Source: Magnetococcales bacterium (GTDB lineage Bacteria; Pseudomonadota; Magnetococcia; Magnetococcales; DC0425bin3). Taken from it: a stretch of DNA of 7,191 bases. The notes under the pieces were generated by a model. That model did not search any database. It saw nothing but the letters and a program-made list of their open reading frames with translations, and was not told the DNA's origin. The stretch lies in NCBI GenBank assembly GCA_015229045.1, contig JADGCJ010000166.1, positions 1 through 7,191 on the forward strand, read 5' to 3'. Shown in pieces: positions 1 to 7,191 of the stretch. Each line of letters opens with the position of its first letter. Within the stretch, counting starts at the first letter, position 1. Both the position numbers and the translations under genes were made by a program.

Positions 1-555
1 TGACCCAGGGGCAGTGGCAGAAGGTGATGGGCAACAATCCGGCCTATTTCAAACGGGGCGACGACTATCCTGTGGAGCAGGTCTCCTGGGATGATGTTCA
101 GCAATTTATTAAAAAAATAAACGAAATGAGTAAAAACCACTACCGGCTTCCCACCGAGGCGGAGTGGGAGTATGCCTGCCGTTCCGGCGGCAAGGCGGAG
201 CGGTATGCGGGCGGTGATGATCTGGATGCGCTGGCCTGGTATGTCCAGAACAGCGACGAGGTCAGCCATCCGGTTGGTCAAAAGCTTCCCAATGGTTTGG
301 GGTTGCATGACATGTGCGGCAATGTGTGGGAGTGGTGCGAGGATTGGCGAGCGGTTTCCCGGAAAATCGCAAAAAACCGTGTCAAGGATATTTCGTCAAG
401 ACGGGTTCTGAATAGTTACATTTTTTTTCCATCTAAGGTCAACGGCCACTGTAAAGGGAGAAAACGTGGACCAAGGGATATCGCGCTGATGGCACAGGCA
501 ACATGGGCTTTCAAATTATTATTCATCCAGGTCAGACGCCTCCTGTAAATAAGCA
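1..555 (+). pseudogene. FGE-sulfatase/SUMF1-like domain protein, 5'-truncated by window, C-terminus frameshifted
   Basis: The frame is open from base 3 and begins TQGQWQKVMGNNPAYF, the usual middle of an FGE-sulfatase (SUMF1, C-type-lectin-like) domain, so the gene starts before the window. RLPTEAEWEYACR (about 141-182) and GLHDMCGNVWEWCEDW (300-347) are hallmark motifs of the family. After W at 345-347 the expected RVxRGGSW...LRSxxR...GFRxV tail is absent in this frame, which runs on as unrelated sequence to the stop at 546-548. Pieces of that tail appear in other frames: SRIFRQDGF, a TGA at 409, then LRSTATVKGENVDQG in one frame (to about 477), and GYRADGTGNMGFQIII in the next (476-526). 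This fits two frameshifts plus a stop. Family members include formylglycine-generating enzymes and many non-catalytic lectin-fold proteins. The conserved RGGSxC region that would decide between them is lost. Domain identity is secure. The reconstruction of the tail is by eye. Confidence 0.8.
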
Positions 556-943
556 GGAACCTGACCTTGTGCTGAGGTCAACCAAACAAGGTGGCTTCGT
601 TCACGGATTGTCAGCGAGTCGGGAGCAGGTGTTGAGCCTGGTGAGTGAAAGAATCATCTGCTCCCTGAGTATTGAGGCTGCTGGGCTACACTCTGATCCC
701 CGGATTGGCCGTTTCGCCACCGATGAGTGGGGTCATGTAACGCAGGGAATGAATTCGAGAAAGGACCGTCGGAGCTGGTTGGGCTTGGTTTTTCACAGTG
801 GTAGACATGGGGACGTCGGTGCAGGTCATGTTGTGGCCATCCATCCTCGTGTTCACCGAAACTTCCGTGTACCGAGCGAAGCCATCTTGGAGTTCATGGA
901 ACGCTCAAGAAAGACTGGACGGTGGAACAGAACTGCTTCCTGA
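503..943 (+). CDS. hypothetical ORF, probably remnant sequence
   Basis: This is a 146-codon open frame on the plus strand, with an ATG at 503 and a TGA at 941-943. Its first 10 or so codons (MGFQIII...) look like the displaced C-terminal end of the preceding FGE-type gene, so the ATG is probably not a true start. No convincing ribosome binding site precedes it. The rest is basic and rich in Arg, Ser, Gly and His, with no transmembrane segment, signal peptide or motif I recognise. It includes a WGHVTQG stretch around 730-750. The opposite strand is broken by stops, so if coding exists here it is on this strand. It may be a fragment of an old mobile element or non-coding debris. I cannot assign a function. 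Confidence 0.25.
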   Translation: MGFQIIIHPGQTPPVNKQEPDLVLRSTKQGGFVHGLSASREQVLSLVSERIICSLSIEAAGLHSDPRIGRFATDEWGHVTQGMNSRKDRRSWLGLVFHSGRHGDVGAGHVVAIHPRVHRNFRVPSEAILEFMERSRKTGRWNRTAS

Positions 944-1023
944 ACCTTAAACAGGCCCTGGAGGAGTGAATGGTAGGGCATTGATCATCATTTGGGCCAA
1001 CCGGTCGGGACGTTCGGTTAAAG

Positions 1024-1042
1024 CCCCCGGCTCTGCCGGGGG
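1024..1042. repeat. perfect 8-bp inverted repeat, 3-nt loop
   Basis: CCCCCGGC, loop TCT, GCCGGGGG. The stem is perfect and almost entirely GC. On the plus strand it is followed by ATACTTAC, not a T-run, so it is not a classic forward terminator. On the minus strand it is followed by CTTTAACC, a poor U-tract. A weaker dyad, AACCG...CGGTT, lies just upstream (about 999-1019). From memory, very similar GC hairpins recur around IS200/IS605-like elements and REP-type repeats in many genomes, so it may be the surviving end of such an element. No transposase for it is visible here. Confidence 0.6.
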
Positions 1043-1200
1043 ATACTTACTCCATAGGCACATGAAACACACAAGGTCATCATGGCCTTTGGGGATTGAG
1101 ACTATCGGTTTCATTTGCCCGCTAGTTGATGCAATACATTCAAGTATATATCTATGGAATATGTAATGATTATAATTATGAATATGTAAATACAATTTAT

Positions 1201-1206
1201 TATAAT
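1201..1206 (+). promoter_or_regulatory. possible -10 box in AT-rich leader
   Basis: TATAAT matches the sigma-70 -10 consensus and lies about 110 bases before the ATG at 1317. The region 17 bases upstream has no TTGACA-like hexamer. The surroundings are so AT-rich that several such hexamers would arise by chance, so this is only a candidate promoter for the downstream gene. Confidence 0.2.
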
Positions 1207-1316
1207 ATAGAATAACTGGAATAAAATAATCCTTATATGCGTTAATATAATATCTTTAGTATGTACCAGAAAGAAGCTGTGACCTTCTCCAACCAACCTA
1301 CGCGGAGTACAAACTC

Positions 1317-2070
1317 ATGGATAACCTCATGTCTATCAATACTAACAATCAAGCCGGCAATAGTGACGCTAACAATCAAAGCAGTCATAGTGGTAGCTAT
1401 TTTATGAAATTCCTCAAGGTTTCATCTGAGGTCATGGAATTCACAAACAATATCACCAATGGTATGGGAGATTCTGAGAAAAAATTTATGGTGCAACTCA
1501 TAGCATCAACAATCATCAATACAGCGAAGATGGAGCCCAATGAATACATCCCAATCCCATCAAAAACTATCGAGAAATACGCTCGCGGGGCAAATCCTTT
1601 GTCCGACAAATTCAACGATATCATCGAATTGATAAATGCAGACCAGCAAAGAAGACGATGCCGTCGTTTTCGTTTGGTGTCTGATAAGAGAGACGCCTTG
1701 TTGGAAGCAATGACCATCTCTAACATCGGCCAAAGGAGGTGCTTCAATTTGATAACCAGTAAACCGACTACAAGGATCAACAGGTCGAAATATAAGACAT
1801 CCGACGATAAACTCGAACCCGTTCTTATTCGTAAGGCAATGTATAATATCTGTCCTCGCCCGTATAACGCTCAAGCTATTGAGGCACACCTTTATCAAGA
1901 GAAACAGCAATACGAGGATATGAAATCAAATTATGGGGAAGACGATCGTCGAACGGTTCGCCAATTGGCTCGGTACCTGAACGATTTGCGTTGCTACCAC
2001 GTAGTGTTAAATGCCGAATCCCGTGTGATTATGTACCGAAAAGGAGCTATCCTCTATTCCTGGCCAGAGA
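1317..2070 (+). pseudogene. N-terminal half of a divergent family A-like polymerase, interrupted by IS481 element
   Basis: The ATG at 1317 has a GGAG ribosome binding site nine bases upstream (about 1304-1307). The open frame runs to a TGA at 2085-2087, but the last 5 or 6 codons are IS sequence, so native coding probably ends near 2070 (about 251 residues). Residues 1-28 are Asn/Ser-rich and low complexity. The rest is polar and mixed helical, with a basic cluster (QQRRRCRRFR) near residue 110 and a helical stretch ending RQLARYLNDLRCYHVVLN near 220-236. I recognise no domain: there is no DEDD exonuclease pattern, zinc cluster or Walker motif. It is assigned to the same gene as 3129-4005 because the downstream half lacks its own start, reads open back to the IS edge and has the same low-GC composition. 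By position it would precede the TGR motif, as the exonuclease/thumb portion does in family A polymerases. Confidence 0.6.
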
Positions 2071-3128
2071 TGTCCTTTCTCTGCTGAAACGTGGGTAGCC
2101 CAGGATCCCTTTCCCCCTGGATTACGGTCAATCCCCCATATTCGGGAAGAGCGCGATGAATATAAACCTCCACAAGAACGCTCGTACCACTCCAGCCATC
2201 CGGCGGGAGTTGAGTGAATCCCCGCTGCATCAGGCAGAATTGGCCCGGAAGTACCATTTGAGCCGTGCTACCGTGCGCAAGTGGCAAAGTCGGGATAGCG
2301 TTGAAGACCATTCCCATAGGCCTTTCACCCTCAAGGCCAATCTTTCGCCTGCCCAGGAGACAGTGGTGGTTGCATTACGGGAGACCCTCTTGCTTCCATT
2401 GGACGATTTGCTGGTGGTAACCCGGGAGTTCATCAATCCACTTGTTTCCCGTTCCGGTCTGGATCGTTGCCTTCGTCGCCATGGTGTCTCCAATCTCAAG
2501 GCGCTATTGCCCCAAGAGGAGCATGCCGTTCCTTCTTTCAAGACCTTCAAGGACTATGAACCTGGTTTCGTGCATGTGGATGTAAAGTATCTTCCCCAAA
2601 TGCCGGACCAGGAGCAGCGCAGCTACCTGTTTGCAGCCATTGACAGAGCCACCCGTTGGGTTTACGTGGAGATGCTACCAGACAAGTCAGCAGAGTCCGC
2701 CAAAGGGTTTCTGCAACGCCTGATCAAGGCTGCCTCCTTCCGCATTCAGAAGATCCTGACCGATAATGGAAAAGAGTTCACGGATCGTTTCTGTGCCACG
2801 GGAGAACGGGAGCCCACTGGCCAACATCCTTTCGATCAAGAATGTGTCCAGCATCAGATTCAGCACCGTCTCATCAAACCACGCCATCCTCAAACAAACG
2901 GAATGATCGAACGCTTTAATGGCCGTATCGGAGAAATTCTGGCTACGACACGTTTCGATTCAGCACAGAATTTGGAGCAGGCACTCATTCGATATGCTAA
3001 GATATATAATCAATTTATACCCCAAAAAGCCTTAAAACATACAACCCCAATCCAGGCACTAAAAAATTGGCAACAGAAACGCCCTGAAATATTTAAAAAA
3101 CGTGTCTATAATCTCGCGGGACTTGACA
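2071..3128 (+). mobile_element. IS481-family insertion sequence
   Basis: The element carries one IS481-type transposase and splits a pre-existing gene. The proposed ends are TGTC at 2071 and GACA at 3128. The terminal inverted repeat is weak beyond those four bases: TGTCCTTTCTCTGCTGA on the left against TGTCAAGTCCCGCGAGA on the right, 9 of 17 matching. No target-site duplication is visible. The only shared word near the edges is CCAG at 2064-2067 and 3135-3138, which would not give symmetric ends. The length would be 1058 bp, within the usual IS481 range. The element is certain, but the exact boundaries are good only to about 10 bases. Confidence 0.75.
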
Positions 3129-3133
3129 GTTAA
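2156..3133 (+). CDS. IS481-family transposase (DDE)
   Basis: This 325-residue transposase catalyses cut-and-paste or copy-type movement of the surrounding IS. The N-terminus (MNINLHKNARTTPAIRREL) and the helix-turn-helix LARKYHLSRATVRKWQSR (about residues 29-46) are typical of IS481. The rve/integrase-core DDE residues are visible as D142 (FVHVDVKYLP), D203 (LTDNGKEF) and E252 (PQTNGMIERFNG). The long D-to-E gap with an ATGEREPTGQHPFDQEC insertion is a pattern I recall from one IS481 subgroup. The length matches full-size members, so the protein looks intact. The ATG at 2156 is preceded by GGGAAGAG at 2144-2151. The ORF reads through the proposed right inverted repeat, and its TAA (3131-3133) falls just outside the element, in target DNA, if the end is at 3128. 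Confidence 0.93.
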   Translation: MNINLHKNARTTPAIRRELSESPLHQAELARKYHLSRATVRKWQSRDSVEDHSHRPFTLKANLSPAQETVVVALRETLLLPLDDLLVVTREFINPLVSRSGLDRCLRRHGVSNLKALLPQEEHAVPSFKTFKDYEPGFVHVDVKYLPQMPDQEQRSYLFAAIDRATRWVYVEMLPDKSAESAKGFLQRLIKAASFRIQKILTDNGKEFTDRFCATGEREPTGQHPFDQECVQHQIQHRLIKPRHPQTNGMIERFNGRIGEILATTRFDSAQNLEQALIRYAKIYNQFIPQKALKHTTPIQALKNWQQKRPEIFKKRVYNLAGLDS

Positions 3134-4005
3134 ACCAGCGCCCCAAAAAAGACCGCATCCTTCAAATCCACAGGTATCCAGCAGCTTATCAAGTCCAGAA
3201 AACAGGACGCATAGGCGAACAAGGCGGAGGGCTGCAAAGCGCGTCGAGGGCCATGAAAAAAGCTGCATATATGGGTATACCAGACCTGCACAACTACGAT
3301 CTGAAGTCTTCCCAGGTCAACGGATTGATCCAACAATTCCAGGACGCGGGTATCCCCATTGATTGGCTTGTCGATTATCGTGATCATCCTGAACGCCGCG
3401 AAGAGTATGCTTATGATATAAATATCGACCAAAATACGTTTAAAATATGTCTTCTGACATTGATTATGGGCGGAACTCTTGGCTCCGTTGAGGTAAAAAG
3501 CAGAAACGCAAGGGGGGCCATCTTAACAGCCATTGACGACTACCATAATGGCTCATCGATGTCCTCAAGTATAAGCTATATGAAGTTCAAAAGAATCGTG
3601 AGGCCTTTGATCAATGACATCGATAAATGGCATAATCACCTGCTAACCTACAACCAAAACGAACAAACTGATGATGTTATGTATAAGTATGAAGGAATCG
3701 TCAACCGGCGCAACCCAACTGGGAAAATAATGGCGATAGGACGAATCGCACCAGATGGAACTATCCAGACTCTCGAACAGCGTCAAATAACCAAAAGAAG
3801 GCTAGCTGCTTTCGTTCTGCAAGGACAAGAAGCAGCATTCATTCACCACCTCACCAACCTCTCCAGCAAATACGGATTTGAGGTGGTTGGCAACGAACAT
3901 GACGGACTACTGACACTGGGACAAATACCTAAAGAGGCCATAGAGGAGGCGGAAAAGCATTCCGGATTAAGAAATCCGATACTGGAGGAAAAGCCATTTG
4001 GATAA
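3129..4005 (+). pseudogene. C-terminal palm of a divergent family A-like DNA/RNA polymerase
   Basis: The frame is open from just after the IS end (about 3127) to the TAA at 4003-4005. The internal ATG at 3253 is not the native start, because clear conserved sequence lies upstream of it. The family A landmarks occur in order: TGRIGEQGGGLQS (3202-3240), matching TGRLSSxxPNLQN; YDLKSSQ with the putative metal-binding Asp at 3298; an O-helix-like FKICLLTLIMGG with Lys at 3442 and Gly nine residues later; LQGQEAAF (3817-3840), matching the PIQGxAAD helix; and EHDGLL with the second Asp at 3901, matching VHDE. The D-to-K gap (48) and the Q-to-D gap (27) are close to Taq/Klenow (53 and 31). The HDG and the motif A shape also recall T7-type RNA polymerases. 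It has probably lost function through the IS insertion. Alignments are by eye. Confidence 0.65.
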
Positions 4006-4036
4006 ACAATCCAGATAATTCACGCACCTGTCAAGC

Positions 4037-4083
4037 AGGAGGGGACAAGGGGGACAGGCCAGGAGACAGGACAGAAGGGGAAA
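4037..4083 (+). other. G-rich purine tract downstream of polymerase remnant
   Basis: This stretch is almost free of T. It has repeated GGGACA/GGACAG-like words and G-runs at 4041-4044, 4049-4053 and 4077-4080, plus several GG pairs. It could form a two-layer G-quadruplex, or it could be simple low-complexity sequence. No coding sequence was recognised across 4006-4138. Confidence 0.35.
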
Positions 4084-4138
4084 CCAGACCTGCTGCCAGA
4101 CTCCCCCAGATCCTTCTCTATGAAGTGGTCCGTGGCCA

Positions 4139-4153
4139 AGGGCAGATTTTTGC
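4139..4153 (+). promoter_or_regulatory. possible sigma-54 promoter before small TTG-start gene
   Basis: AGGCAG-N5-TTGC keeps the invariant GG (4140-4141) and GC (4152-4153) at the correct 12-base offset, with 8 of 10 consensus positions matching TGGCAC-N5-TTGC. Transcription would start near 4165, immediately before the AAGGTGAGGAG ribosome binding site. It is weaker than the site at 4814-4828 and could be chance. Confidence 0.3.
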
Positions 4154-4185
4154 GAAGGGTTTTCATAAGGTGAGGAGTAAATCCA

Positions 4186-4414: not shown

Positions 4415-4729
4415 TCACGGATCCAGCTGGCCTTTCGACTGGTCAATCAGCAGATTCCTGTGGTTCGGAGACAGTTGGCCGAGTCTCAGAATCAACTCCG
4501 CCATGCCATCGTCTTCCGCATAGAAAAACGGGGTGGGGACTCCAAGAACCGCAGCCAGTTTGGCGGCTGTTTCAAAGTCGGGGGCGTGTTTGCCCCTCTC
4601 GTATTGGTTCATCCGTGGGCTGGCGCTGAATTCGTCAAATCCCGCTCGAATCCCCAGCTCTTTCTGGGAAAGCCCCATCCGAGTTCTTGCTTGCCGCAGC
4701 CGTTTGCCGATGGGGGAAGATATTGCCAT
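4415..4729 (-). CDS. XRE-family helix-turn-helix transcriptional regulator
   Basis: The 104-residue protein has one Cro/CI-type HTH domain over residues 8-66. Helix 2 is GLSQKELGIRAG, and the recognition helix lies around SASPRMNQYERG, followed by the usual PDFETAAKLAAVLGVP helix. After the HTH comes FFYAEDDGMAELI and a short helical tail that may mediate dimerisation. The size fits a stand-alone phage-repressor-like regulator. The ATG is at 4729-4727 with no strong Shine-Dalgarno sequence. Two perfect CTAAG-N5-CTTAG dyads lie 33-81 bases upstream of the start, where an autorepressor would bind. The gene is divergent from the flagellin gene, whose sigma-54 promoter begins three bases past the second dyad. 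I infer that it regulates itself and the flagellin gene. The HTH assignment is secure and the target assignment is inference. Confidence 0.9.
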   Translation of the reverse strand: MAISSPIGKRLRQARTRMGLSQKELGIRAGFDEFSASPRMNQYERGKHAPDFETAAKLAAVLGVPTPFFYAEDDGMAELILRLGQLSPNHRNLLIDQSKGQLDP

Positions 4730-4761: not shown

Positions 4762-4776
4762 CTAAGATCTTCTTAG
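4762..4776. promoter_or_regulatory. operator-like dyad, copy 1 (CTAAG-N5-CTTAG)
   Basis: CTAAGATCTTCTTAG is a perfect 5-bp dyad with a 5-base spacer. The match extends to 6 bp (CTAAGA/TCTTAG) if the spacer is read as three bases. It is 33 bases upstream of the XRE start codon on that gene's strand. Its centre is 34 bases from copy 2. It is probably a binding site of the divergently encoded XRE protein. Confidence 0.65.
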
Positions 4777-4795
4777 AAGTGGCTGCGGCTGCATA

Positions 4796-4810
4796 CTAAG
4801 GAATGCTTAG
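4796..4810. promoter_or_regulatory. operator-like dyad, copy 2 (CTAAG-N5-CTTAG)
   Basis: CTAAGGAATGCTTAG is perfect and extends to ACTAAG/CTTAGT on the outside. It ends three bases before the -24 element of the sigma-54 promoter at 4814, so a bound protein would clash with sigma-54 polymerase. It also lies upstream of the XRE gene, so it could serve both directions. The following TTTT makes it look slightly like a terminator, but the recurrence of the motif argues for an operator. Confidence 0.68.
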
Positions 4811-4813
4811 TTT

Positions 4814-4828
4814 TGGCACCCCTTTTGC
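4814..4828 (+). promoter_or_regulatory. sigma-54 (RpoN) promoter of the flagellin gene
   Basis: TGGCAC-CCCTT-TTGC followed by TT matches the -24/-12 consensus at every conserved position, with the invariant GG at 4815-4816 and GC at 4827-4828. The predicted start is near 4840, giving a leader of about 140 nt before the flagellin ATG at 4981. RpoN control of flagellar genes is well established in many Proteobacteria and implies a bacterial enhancer-binding activator (FlrC/FleR/FlbD type) elsewhere in the genome. Its enhancer site would be expected inside the XRE gene region, and I did not identify one. Confidence 0.8.
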
Positions 4829-4889
4829 TTCGTGATTGTCAGGGCGTTCTCGGGTGAAGACCTGAGGAGAGCGCTGGCACGCCCGGATA

Positions 4890-4904
4890 CTAAGAACTCC
4901 TTAG
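4890..4904. promoter_or_regulatory. operator-like dyad, copy 3 (CTAAG-N5-CTTAG)
   Basis: CTAAGAACTCCTTAG is a perfect 5-bp dyad with the same 5-base spacer. It lies about 50 bases downstream of the predicted sigma-54 start and 76 bases before the flagellin ATG. Its centre is 94 bases from copy 2, close to nine helical turns, so the two sites could be looped together across the promoter. Confidence 0.65.
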
Positions 4905-4942
4905 CGTGAGGGGTTCGCCTGATGCGACGGCGGGGTGACCGC

Positions 4943-4958
4943 CCGGCAAAAAAGCCGG
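4943..4958 (+). promoter_or_regulatory. leader hairpin just before flagellin ribosome binding site
   Basis: CCGGC, loop AAAAAA, GCCGG forms a perfect GC stem in the flagellin 5' leader and ends about eight bases before the purine-rich AAGGGGGTGGG (4967-4977). An alternative pairing of GACC (4937-4940) with GGTC (4957-4960) is possible. It may stabilise the mRNA or affect translation. There is no U-tract, so it is not a terminator. Confidence 0.4.
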
Positions 4959-4980
4959 TCATTTCCAAGGGGGTGGGCTC

Positions 4981-6501
4981 ATGGCTTTGACGGTTCAAAC
5001 AAATTTGGCCGCGATCAACAGCCGCCGTTACCTCGACAAGGCAACGGTTACGGTCCAACGCACCCTGTTACATCTTGCCTCGGGGAAACGCATCACGGAG
5101 GGGCGAGACGATCCTTCCGGGTTGGCTGTCGTCAGCCATCAAAGTGCGCAGATTCGCGGCCTGCAACGGGCCACTTTGAACGCCAATGACGGCATTTCCA
5201 TGGTCCAGGTGGCTTCGGGTGCGATGGAGGAGTCGGTCGGTGTACTTCAACGTCTGCGGGAGTTGGCCGTTTATTCCGCAAACTCGGTTCCGACACAGCA
5301 GGACCGGCAAAAAATGCAGCTGGAAGTCACGCAACTCTTGGCTGAATTGGACCGTATCGCAACCGACACCCAGTTCAACGGCATGGTACTGTTGGATGGG
5401 CGCTATGCTGGGCAGGATACTGTTCCTGCCATTCCTCCACAGGCGGCACAAGCCGCCCAGCCAGCCATTCCGGGGGTGAAAGGTGAGCTGCGCTACGTTG
5501 GGTTTGATGCCCAGGGAAATATGTTGGGAAATTATAACCCAACGGGTTCAGTACTGAACTCCTTCGAAGTGGTGGGCAACCGCTATGTGGAGAGGGCAGC
5601 CGGGGACTTTCCGCAGGATCTTGCTGACGCCTTCAGCAACGATGGCCCGCTCAATGGACTCTACGAAATCGTGGTGCCCGGGCAGGATCCCGTTCCGGCA
5701 CGGCAAGCTACCGAGGCAACGGCTGGCGTGCCGGGGATTGCGGAGGTTCCCGGGTTTAACGTTCAGGTGGGGGACGATGAAGGGGAAACAGTGGGAGTGC
5801 GGATTCCCGATGTGCGCTCATCCGCTTTGATTGCCATGAGCAGCGCCATGCAGGCCTACTCCGTCAATCGCCATCCGGACATTCCCTGGGCACCTGATCC
5901 ATTGCTCAACCTTCCCTTCAGCACCTACCTGGATCCCACCCGTGCGCCAAATGACCCGGGAGGGACAGGAGTTCCAGGAACTCCTGCCCAGTATCAATTG
6001 ATCGCGGCAACGCCCGCCAACTATCCCGGGAAACCTCTTCCTCCGGTGGACGTCAATGGCAACCCAAGCCTGGGATACGAAGACTGGTTCTTCAATCCTT
6101 CCACGGGGGCTTACGTGTTTACCCAGGGGGTGGGCAATTACCGCAAAATCGCCGATGAAATTCCGGGAGTGGAAGGAACTCCAGTCAATCGGGAGATTCC
6201 CGGCCAGCAATCATCGGTCTGGGCCATCACCATGCTGGATCAGGCCTTGGAAAAGGTGAACCTTGCTCAGGCTCAACTGGGCGGCGTGTTGAACCGCTTG
6301 GAATCCTCGGCCCAAAATCTGGGAGTGATGACCGAGAATATGAGTCGATCGCGTTCCCAGAATAGCGATGCGGATATAGCCCAGGAAACCATGCTGTTGA
6401 CCCGAAACACCATTATTCAGCAAGCCGCCACAGCCATTCTGGCCCAGGCCAATCAGCAACCACAGTTGGTAATGGAACTCTTGGCTGTTGGGCGAAAATA
6501 G
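4981..6501 (+). CDS. fliC: flagellin
   Basis: This is the secreted flagellar filament subunit, 506 residues. The N-terminal D0/D1 region (1-140) is canonical: MALTVQTNLAAINSRR, LASGKRI, DDPSGLAV, a LQRLRELAVYSANS helix that corresponds to the TLR5-recognised segment in pathogens, and DTQFNGMVLLDG. The C-terminal D1/D0 region (about 411-506) contains ALEKVNLAQAQLGGVLNRLE, MSRSRSQNSDADIAQET and AILAQANQQPQLVMELL. It ends with AVGRK, slightly beyond the common ...LLR end. The central 270 residues are variable and rich in Pro, Gly, Ala and Asn, with repeated PAIP, VPG and IPG motifs, and should form the surface-exposed D2/D3 part. No signal peptide is expected, because export uses the flagellar type III system. 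The start is set by AAGGGGGTGGG just upstream. Expression is probably RpoN-dependent and may be repressed through the CTAAG dyads. Confidence 0.95.
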   Translation: MALTVQTNLAAINSRRYLDKATVTVQRTLLHLASGKRITEGRDDPSGLAVVSHQSAQIRGLQRATLNANDGISMVQVASGAMEESVGVLQRLRELAVYSANSVPTQQDRQKMQLEVTQLLAELDRIATDTQFNGMVLLDGRYAGQDTVPAIPPQAAQAAQPAIPGVKGELRYVGFDAQGNMLGNYNPTGSVLNSFEVVGNRYVERAAGDFPQDLADAFSNDGPLNGLYEIVVPGQDPVPARQATEATAGVPGIAEVPGFNVQVGDDEGETVGVRIPDVRSSALIAMSSAMQAYSVNRHPDIPWAPDPLLNLPFSTYLDPTRAPNDPGGTGVPGTPAQYQLIAATPANYPGKPLPPVDVNGNPSLGYEDWFFNPSTGAYVFTQGVGNYRKIADEIPGVEGTPVNREIPGQQSSVWAITMLDQALEKVNLAQAQLGGVLNRLESSAQNLGVMTENMSRSRSQNSDADIAQETMLLTRNTIIQQAATAILAQANQQPQLVMELLAVGRK

Positions 6502-6542
6502 GCGGATTTGAATCGATGCGTTGGTTTGGCGTGCCCATCTGA

Positions 6543-6557
6543 CTAAGTATTCCTTAA
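6543..6557. promoter_or_regulatory. operator-like dyad, copy 4 (one mismatch), before flgG
   Basis: CTAAGTATTCCTTAA differs from the dyad seen at 4762-4904 by one base (final G to A) and keeps the 5-base spacer. It lies 42 bases after the flagellin stop and about 93 bases before the flgG ATG. No convincing sigma-70, sigma-54 or sigma-28 promoter was found next to it. It suggests that flgG may belong to the same regulon. Confidence 0.5.
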
Positions 6558-6649: not shown

Positions 6650-7191
6650 ATGATACGCGGAATGTTCAGTGCCGCTTCGGGGATGCAGGCTACGACAAAG
6701 AAAATGGATGTCATCAGCAATAATTTATCCAACTCTGCTACAACGGGGTTTAAAGCCTCGCGAGCCGAGTTCAAGGATATCTTTAGCGCTATCGTTCGTG
6801 CGCCTGGCGTTCAAAACGCTGATGGGACAGTATCCCCTGTGGGAATTCAAATTGGTCATGGTGTAATGCTTTCATCGGTTGCCCACGATTTTGCACAGGG
6901 AAGTCCGATCCAAGCGTCGACCGATCCTAAAGATGTAACTGTTATGATCAGCGGTCAGGGCTTTTTCAAAATTCAGCTGCCCGATGGCCAAACTGGTTAT
7001 ACGCGGGATGGAACATTTCATCTGGACAAGACTGGTCAGATCGTAACTGCTGACGGGTACCCTGTTGAAGGGCCAACTTCAATTCCATCCAACGCATCAG
7101 TCGTAAGTATCAATCAAAATGGAACCGTTAGCTATACTGATCCTTCAGCACCACCACAGAATGCAATCGTGCCCGCCGGACATTTTGAATT
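6650..7191 (+). CDS. flgG: flagellar basal-body distal rod protein FlgG (3'-truncated by window)
   Basis: FlgG forms the distal rod of the basal body across the periplasm and is exported by the flagellar type III apparatus. The visible 180 residues start MIRGMFSAASGM. The conserved N-terminal rod motif VISNNLSNSATTGFKASRAEF spans residues 21-41. The FlgG-type core GIQIGHGV (65-72), ISGQGFFKIQLPDG (100-113) and GYTRDGTFHLDKTGQIVTADG (116-136) follows. FlgG is usually about 260 residues, so roughly 80 lie beyond the window. GIQIG and the GQGFFxxxLPDG core favour FlgG over FlgF. The start is set by AAAAGGAG (6636-6643), seven bases before the ATG. It follows the flagellin gene after a 148-bp gap. 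No flgF precedes it here, unlike the common flgF-flgG order. Confidence 0.9.
   Translation, partial: MIRGMFSAASGMQATTKKMDVISNNLSNSATTGFKASRAEFKDIFSAIVRAPGVQNADGTVSPVGIQIGHGVMLSSVAHDFAQGSPIQASTDPKDVTVMISGQGFFKIQLPDGQTGYTRDGTFHLDKTGQIVTADGYPVEGPTSIPSNASVVSINQNGTVSYTDPSAPPQNAIVPAGHFE

Follow-up and report, generated by a model that had tools for sequence, protein, structure and literature searches.

Candidate operators of a controller-protein homologue adjoin a predicted sigma-54 flagellin promoter in a Magnetococcales bacterium

Why does the same short palindrome stand in front of a regulator gene and beside flagellar genes? The question is raised by contig JADGCJ010000166.1 of a Magnetococcales bacterium (assembly GCA_015229045.1; 7,191 nucleotides, the whole of which is referred to as the window), in which an XRE-family gene and a flagellin gene diverge from a common gap, a FlgG-like gene lies downstream of the flagellin gene, and four copies of the dyad CTAAG-N5-CTTAG (dyads 1 to 4) are spread around them. 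The pairing of this operator with this kind of protein is known from restriction-modification (R-M) systems; what is new here is a predicted sigma-54 promoter, placed 3 bp past dyad 2 and facing the flagellin gene.

The window was scanned for CTAAG-N5-CTTAG with up to two mismatches, and the four sites listed by the original prediction, which had been made from the letters of this DNA, were all re-found. Dyads 1 (4762-4776), 2 (4796-4810) and 3 (4890-4904) are exact, while dyad 4 (CTAAGTATTCCTTAA, 6543-6557) has one mismatch and ends 92 bp from the ATG of the FlgG-like gene. The fifth match (3929-3943), with two mismatches, is unremarkable; at this threshold 1.68 matches are expected in the window, and five were obtained in 4 of 200 shuffles. 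The gene calls agree that the sites lie around the starts of the XRE and flagellar genes, with the refinement that dyads 1 and 2 form the self-regulation pair usual in this family of regulators (34 bp register, 19-bp spacer).

The XRE gene (4415-4729, minus strand) encodes a protein of 104 residues with a Pfam HTH_3 domain, homologous to the controller protein C.Csp231I. A phmmer search matches it to the C.Csp231I structure (PDB 3lfp) with E=4.5e-25 over residues 9-92, covering the helix-turn-helix and most of the C-terminal helices, and to PDB 4o8b with E=3e-24; the PADLOC Control_protein profile also matches (E=2.6e-25). PDB 4O8B is BswR of Pseudomonas aeruginosa (PMC3985676). C.Csp231I is described as an R-M controller with a C-box of two CTAAG-n5-CTTAG repeats, 18 nt apart (PMC4824078, PMC4321490). 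Acting on this C-box, it first activates its own promoter and later represses it (PMC4824078); its base contacts are made by Ser32, Gln37 and His43 (PMC4321490). In the window protein the aligned residues are S37, Q42 and H48. A set of 56 sequences, drawn from 120 listed homologues, shows no variation at S37 and H48 and almost none at Q42. BswR also has the equivalents of Ser32, Gln37 and His43, although no CTAAG dyad is present in the rsmZ site reported for it.

The dyads accompany the XRE gene well beyond this species. Genomes were scanned for XRE genes with the homologue alignment, and in the best 80 of 443 confirmed places an exact dyad is found within 200 bp upstream of the XRE match at 72 loci, and one within one mismatch at 77. 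Two dyads 32-35 bp apart, each within one mismatch, occur at 65 of the 80 loci (two exact dyads at 45), and the downstream control stretch gave none at any of them. Dyads 1 and 2 of the window thus correspond in position to the two operators of the C.Csp231I C-box, the XRE-proximal dyad 1 to OR and the XRE-distal dyad 2 to OL. At 345-399 bp ahead of the XRE gene, some enterobacterial homologues (L042, L049, L057, L067) have a further exact dyad pair, or in L067 a single dyad, which hints at a second promoter under control.

The window protein therefore shares with the C.Csp231I / C.EcoO109I class (motif 8) the homology, the base-contacting residues and the CTAAG-N5-CTTAG operator, arranged as a pair before its own gene with a spacer of 19 bp where Csp231I has 18. 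It differs in the absence of recognised R-M genes from the window, in the two extra operators and in the sigma-54 flagellin promoter set against one operator. No R-M partner was recognised among the eight window frames scanned, and on contig C16 of the close relative G055 (19 frames, 34 of 37.6 kb) the sole R-M candidate is an MT-A70 gene. Since divergent endonucleases could escape such a scan, the protein is filed as a homologue working like the class and not as an R-M controller; judged by its sequence, it is a C.Csp231I-class homologue that most likely functions like one. The dyads are very likely its operators, as the conservation of the pair upstream of its homologues indicates. This agrees with the dedicated XRE operator of the original prediction, as do the exact copies in G055, which are not scattered.

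G055 (4.5 Mb) belongs to a set of 48 genomes searched here, the class of the Magnetococcales metagenome-assembled genome G001 (the source of L011), which we take to be Magnetococcia. With 98% DNA identity to the window over 3025 bp it was taken as the same species, and it keeps the order XRE, flagellin, flgG, the flagellin being 99% identical. The whole of G055 contains three exact dyads, all at the XRE-flagellin locus and equivalent to dyads 1-3, so that the sites are beyond chance, as had been claimed, and exact copies show no random scatter through this genome. Within one mismatch there are nine sites, namely dyads 1-3, dyad 4 and five elsewhere; these five remote ones lie inside open frames of at least 133 codons, and no XRE, flagellin or FlgG match was found in their retrieved flanks. 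With one mismatch allowed, the reversed control dyad gives 125 sites in G055 against the nine, and in the further genomes scanned the counts are 2-3 for the dyad and 3-8 for the control per genome. The dyad is often the rarer of the two, and is hence remarkable by its placing, not by its number. In each of the four Magnetococcales genomes G001-G004 the only exact sites are those of the self-regulation pair. Across 40 genomes, 67 of 89 exact dyads stand ahead of an XRE gene; around the other 22 (20 regions) the flagellin and FlgG queries found no match, although other flagellar genes could escape these queries.

The predicted sigma-54 promoter (TGGCACCCCTTTTGC, 4814-4828, plus strand) has all ten consensus bases of TGGCAC-N5-TTGC. 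It starts 18 bp after the first base of dyad 2, and G055 has it too, differing by a single base within the N5 spacer. RpoN was found in all six genomes tested, G055 included, so that in G055 the element and its sigma factor occur together. By convention a sigma-54 start lies 12 nt after the -12 base, which places the start here at about 4840. Relative to it, dyad 2 spans about -44 to -30, and dyad 3, at about +51 to +65, falls in the predicted leader of the flagellin gene.

The spacing between dyad and promoter recurs in other genomes of the class. Class XRE genes were located by tblastn, and up to 400 bp ahead of 111 XRE genes, which comprise the window, 30 loci of the class and the 80 homologous loci, were scanned for the sigma-54 element; four places are duplicated in this set (L011/L252, L056/L247, L060/L249, L073/L250) and one species is present twice (window, G055). 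Within one mismatch the element faces away from the XRE gene in six rows (window, G055, G067, G004, G068, G002) and towards it in none, and G003 follows at two mismatches. These seven rows share one geometry: counted from the first base of a dyad, the promoter begins at exactly 18 bp and a further dyad at 92-121 bp, each palindrome being counted within one mismatch. The dyads themselves are of different types: CTAAG in the window and G055, CTWCG in G067, G004, G068 and G003, and CTGCG in G002. Five more rows, of which L249 and L060 are one place, show a two-mismatch sigma-54 match lacking the 18-bp spacing, and at L232 such a match stands with no dyad. When the four CTWCG gaps are aligned, conservation is plainest in the block of dyad and promoter and in the dyad downstream of it, much else, cargo included, having diverged.

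A compound pattern of a generic dyad, 3 bp and the sigma-54 element was found in five of the 48 class genomes, each time beside an XRE gene, and its reversed control in none. Among 398 genomes of the phylum (class included) the pattern gave the same five and three more, and the control one. The three additional matches have no XRE gene in the retrieved DNA and carry mismatches in the dyad arms (one in one case, two in two cases), and are therefore read as chance.

Operator and protein appear to change together. Published work recognises two groups of motif-8 proteins, with Gln37 or His37, according to the base in the operator (PMC3115060). In the class all 12 CTAAG-type loci encode Gln37 and all 18 other fetched XRE proteins Arg37; a CTAAG dyad within one mismatch occurs at none of the 18 Arg37 loci, six of which (L224, L225, L226, L228, L229, L233) have CTWCG, CTGCG or CTACG dyads, and no such dyad was recognised at the other 12. 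A lead to be drawn from these sequences is that operator and residue 37 vary together in the class, and the Arg37 proteins could possibly form a third specificity class beside the two published groups.

The genes behind the dyad-linked promoter vary too. In G067 and G004 it is flgG, and in G068 and G003 a short protein followed by a large one with PKD-type domains; G002 has a like order (short, large), its large protein giving no Pfam match. The N-termini mark the large proteins as putatively secreted. These pairs of a short and a large protein lie at L226, L228 and L229, with PKD-type domains in two of the three. Among the matches listed above 160 bits, a second FlgG occurs in three of the 48 genomes (G055, G067 and G004, the second copy of G004 being partial), each of which has one of its copies linked to an XRE gene; four of the 48 genomes gave no FlgG match above 200 bits. 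In a FlgG tree of 33 rows the three XRE-linked copies stand apart from the other 30 with a support of 99/99, that of G055 forming a long branch flagged as unsure by the program. Of the 48 genomes, 30 are represented in this tree; another 14 have a FlgG match but no retrieved locus and are absent from it, as is a duplicate row. Flagellin-like matches number 2 to 30 per class genome, a count that may include FlgL-type relatives. It is about an even call whether these loci represent one small regulatory cassette of the class (the xre gene, a dyad followed after 3 bp by the sigma-54 promoter, and a further dyad downstream) with operators diverged in at least three ways (CTAAG, CTWCG, CTGCG; Gln37 or Arg37) and exchanged cargo.

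For the window itself we consider it probable that the XRE protein regulates its own gene through dyads 1 and 2 and represses the flagellin gene through dyads 2 and 3, with dyad 4 perhaps reaching flgG. A dimer would bind each dyad; dyads 1 and 2 would act as a two-operator C-box that sets the XRE level, activating at low and repressing at high concentration as in C.Csp231I. With dyad 2 abutting the upstream edge of the sigma-54 promoter and dyad 3 lying past the start, bound XRE most likely blocks both the polymerase and its elongation, so that the extra flagellin would stay off until a presumed inducing condition; dyad 4 may extend this control to flgG. The distance between dyads 2 and 3 and their counterparts ranges from 8.76 to 11.52 helical turns and the phase is not kept, which makes a strictly phased DNA loop less likely. 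The roadblock described for the controller protein C.Kpn2I, which shuts off one promoter by binding upstream of it and halts elongation at a site within its own gene, offers a model for dyads 2 and 3, although C.Kpn2I acts in an R-M system and the abstract has no mention of sigma-54 (PMC6237814).

The original prediction spoke of an XRE repressor gene and of control over filament production. Control of filament production can still be inferred, and the fixed, recurring sigma-54 spacing supports it more than the dyads alone would; 'repressor', in turn, is not a given, since C.Csp231I both activates and represses.

Several results weigh against this mechanism. The retrieved flanks of the 80 homologues contain no flagellin or FlgG. 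In the class, no sigma-54 match at up to one mismatch is present at 11 of the 12 CTAAG-type XRE loci, and the arrangement is missing from 13 of the 18 more distant loci retrieved (G003 counted as having it); the five other genomes with the arrangement have no counterpart of dyad 1. Ahead of 36 class flagellin genes (30 loci) a sigma-54 element within one mismatch was found once, before the window-type copy only, so that sigma-54 is not a class rule for flagellin; sigma-28-like motifs gave only weak matches before the same 36 genes. No sigma-70 promoter was found between 4600 and 6700, and dyad 4 has neither a sigma-70 nor a sigma-54 match. Dyad 3 is unchanged between the window and G055, but with 13 of 141 bases changed this is not significant (P=0.22 for 15 bases). 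When 45 XRE proteins were placed in a tree (the window protein, two PDB chains, those of the 30 class loci and 12 selected among the 80), the window protein grouped with the general CTAAG proteins and not with the CTWCG proteins, deep support being modest; the shared spacing may thus reflect regulator replacement, deep divergence or convergence. Finally, BswR, a homologue described as being closest in structure to C.Csp231I, is said to influence motility and flagella, as would the window protein, but reportedly acts via rsmZ at ACCCGGCGTTCGCCGGGT and not through a local operator at a flagellin promoter (PMC3985676).

The alternative that survives best, while in our view unlikely, is that XRE on dyad 2 bends the DNA by about 40 degrees and aids a sigma-54 enhancer-binding activator, so that flagellin and flgG would be switched on. 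The fixed 18-bp offset would suit a contact or a bend, but a second dyad past the start fits blocking better, and a protein bound at about -44 to -30 would be expected to intrude on the upstream margin of the polymerase site. C.Csp231I is reported to bend its operators by 39 and 43 degrees (PMC4321490, PMC4824078) and, at low level, to activate its own promoter, but the activation described for C proteins goes through sigma-70 (PMC4824078).

We give somewhat less credit again to the idea that an acquired controller regulates itself through dyads 1 and 2 and nothing more, dyads 3 and 4 and the nearby flagellin gene being incidental. The 80 homologues do bear their dyad pair next to varied neighbour genes, none of them flagellin or FlgG in the retrieved flanks. 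Against this, all three exact sites and one near-exact site of G055 come together at the locus, and the sigma-54 spacing with its downstream dyad recurs with other operators, twice before flgG. Very improbable is a role of the dyads as enhancer sites of a flagellar sigma-54 activator unrelated to XRE; they surround a sigma-54 promoter, but a dyad accompanies XRE at 72 of the 80 loci, in whose retrieved flanks flagellin and FlgG were not found, and dyad sequence and residue 37 differ together in the class. Chance or a dispersed repeat, with no point in favour, can be practically dismissed on the genome-wide G055 counts, which rule out a repeat family by placing all three exact copies of 4.5 Mb at the locus, and on the conserved pairs elsewhere.

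As to the surroundings, the FlgG-like rod gene (6650-7189, plus strand) is cut by the contig end and encodes 268 residues in G055; the flagellin gene (4981-6501, plus strand) encodes 506 residues with Pfam Flagellin_N and Flagellin_C domains. Left of the XRE gene lie an IS481 transposase gene, two unassigned open reading frames and a partial FGE-sulfatase-like gene. The two unassigned frames (1317-2087 and 3253-4005, about 250 residues each) flank the transposase gene and gave no Pfam, NCBIfam or PADLOC match. Identity with contig C16 of G055 begins at 4167, and window positions 1-4166 are unmatched in the 34 kb of C16 compared; on the side where the window has the IS481 transposase, G055 has one of ISL3 type. 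The MT-A70 gene of G055 (PADLOC MTase_II, L253:12510-13901) is about 7.6 kb from xre and separated from it by a transposase and an integrase, and a phage-integrase gene (L253:9262-10215) is about 4.4 kb from xre; the MT-A70 and integrase genes are possibly a remnant of an element that brought the controller protein. Plasmid searches gave no DNA match, and plasmid-borne protein homologues reach up to about 57-60%.

The original prediction also took the circuit to be undescribed. The pair of operator and protein was in fact already known from R-M systems, but for a sigma-54 or flagellar use of a C-protein operator no such circuit was found in the literature searched (titles and abstract openings, mostly open-access). 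A further parallel is XrpA of Cereibacter sphaeroides, an XRE protein that lowers flagellar gene expression and is linked to an RpoN paralogue; there, unlike in the window, RpoN3 drives XrpA itself, which represses ctrA and chpT, and the term 'C protein' was not found by a text search of the article (PMC11999139).

The recurrence of the dyad at one exact distance from sigma-54 promoters suggests that the controller-protein class has been co-opted onto such promoters. If true, this would be, as far as our searches go, the first direct sigma-54 control by the class, as well as a switch dedicated to an accessory set of flagellar parts. An operator that changes with one DNA-reading residue would make cross-talk between paralogues and the exchange of cargo predictable. 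For genomes with many flagellins the finding bears on how single copies are switched, and the cassette offers a testable local switch.

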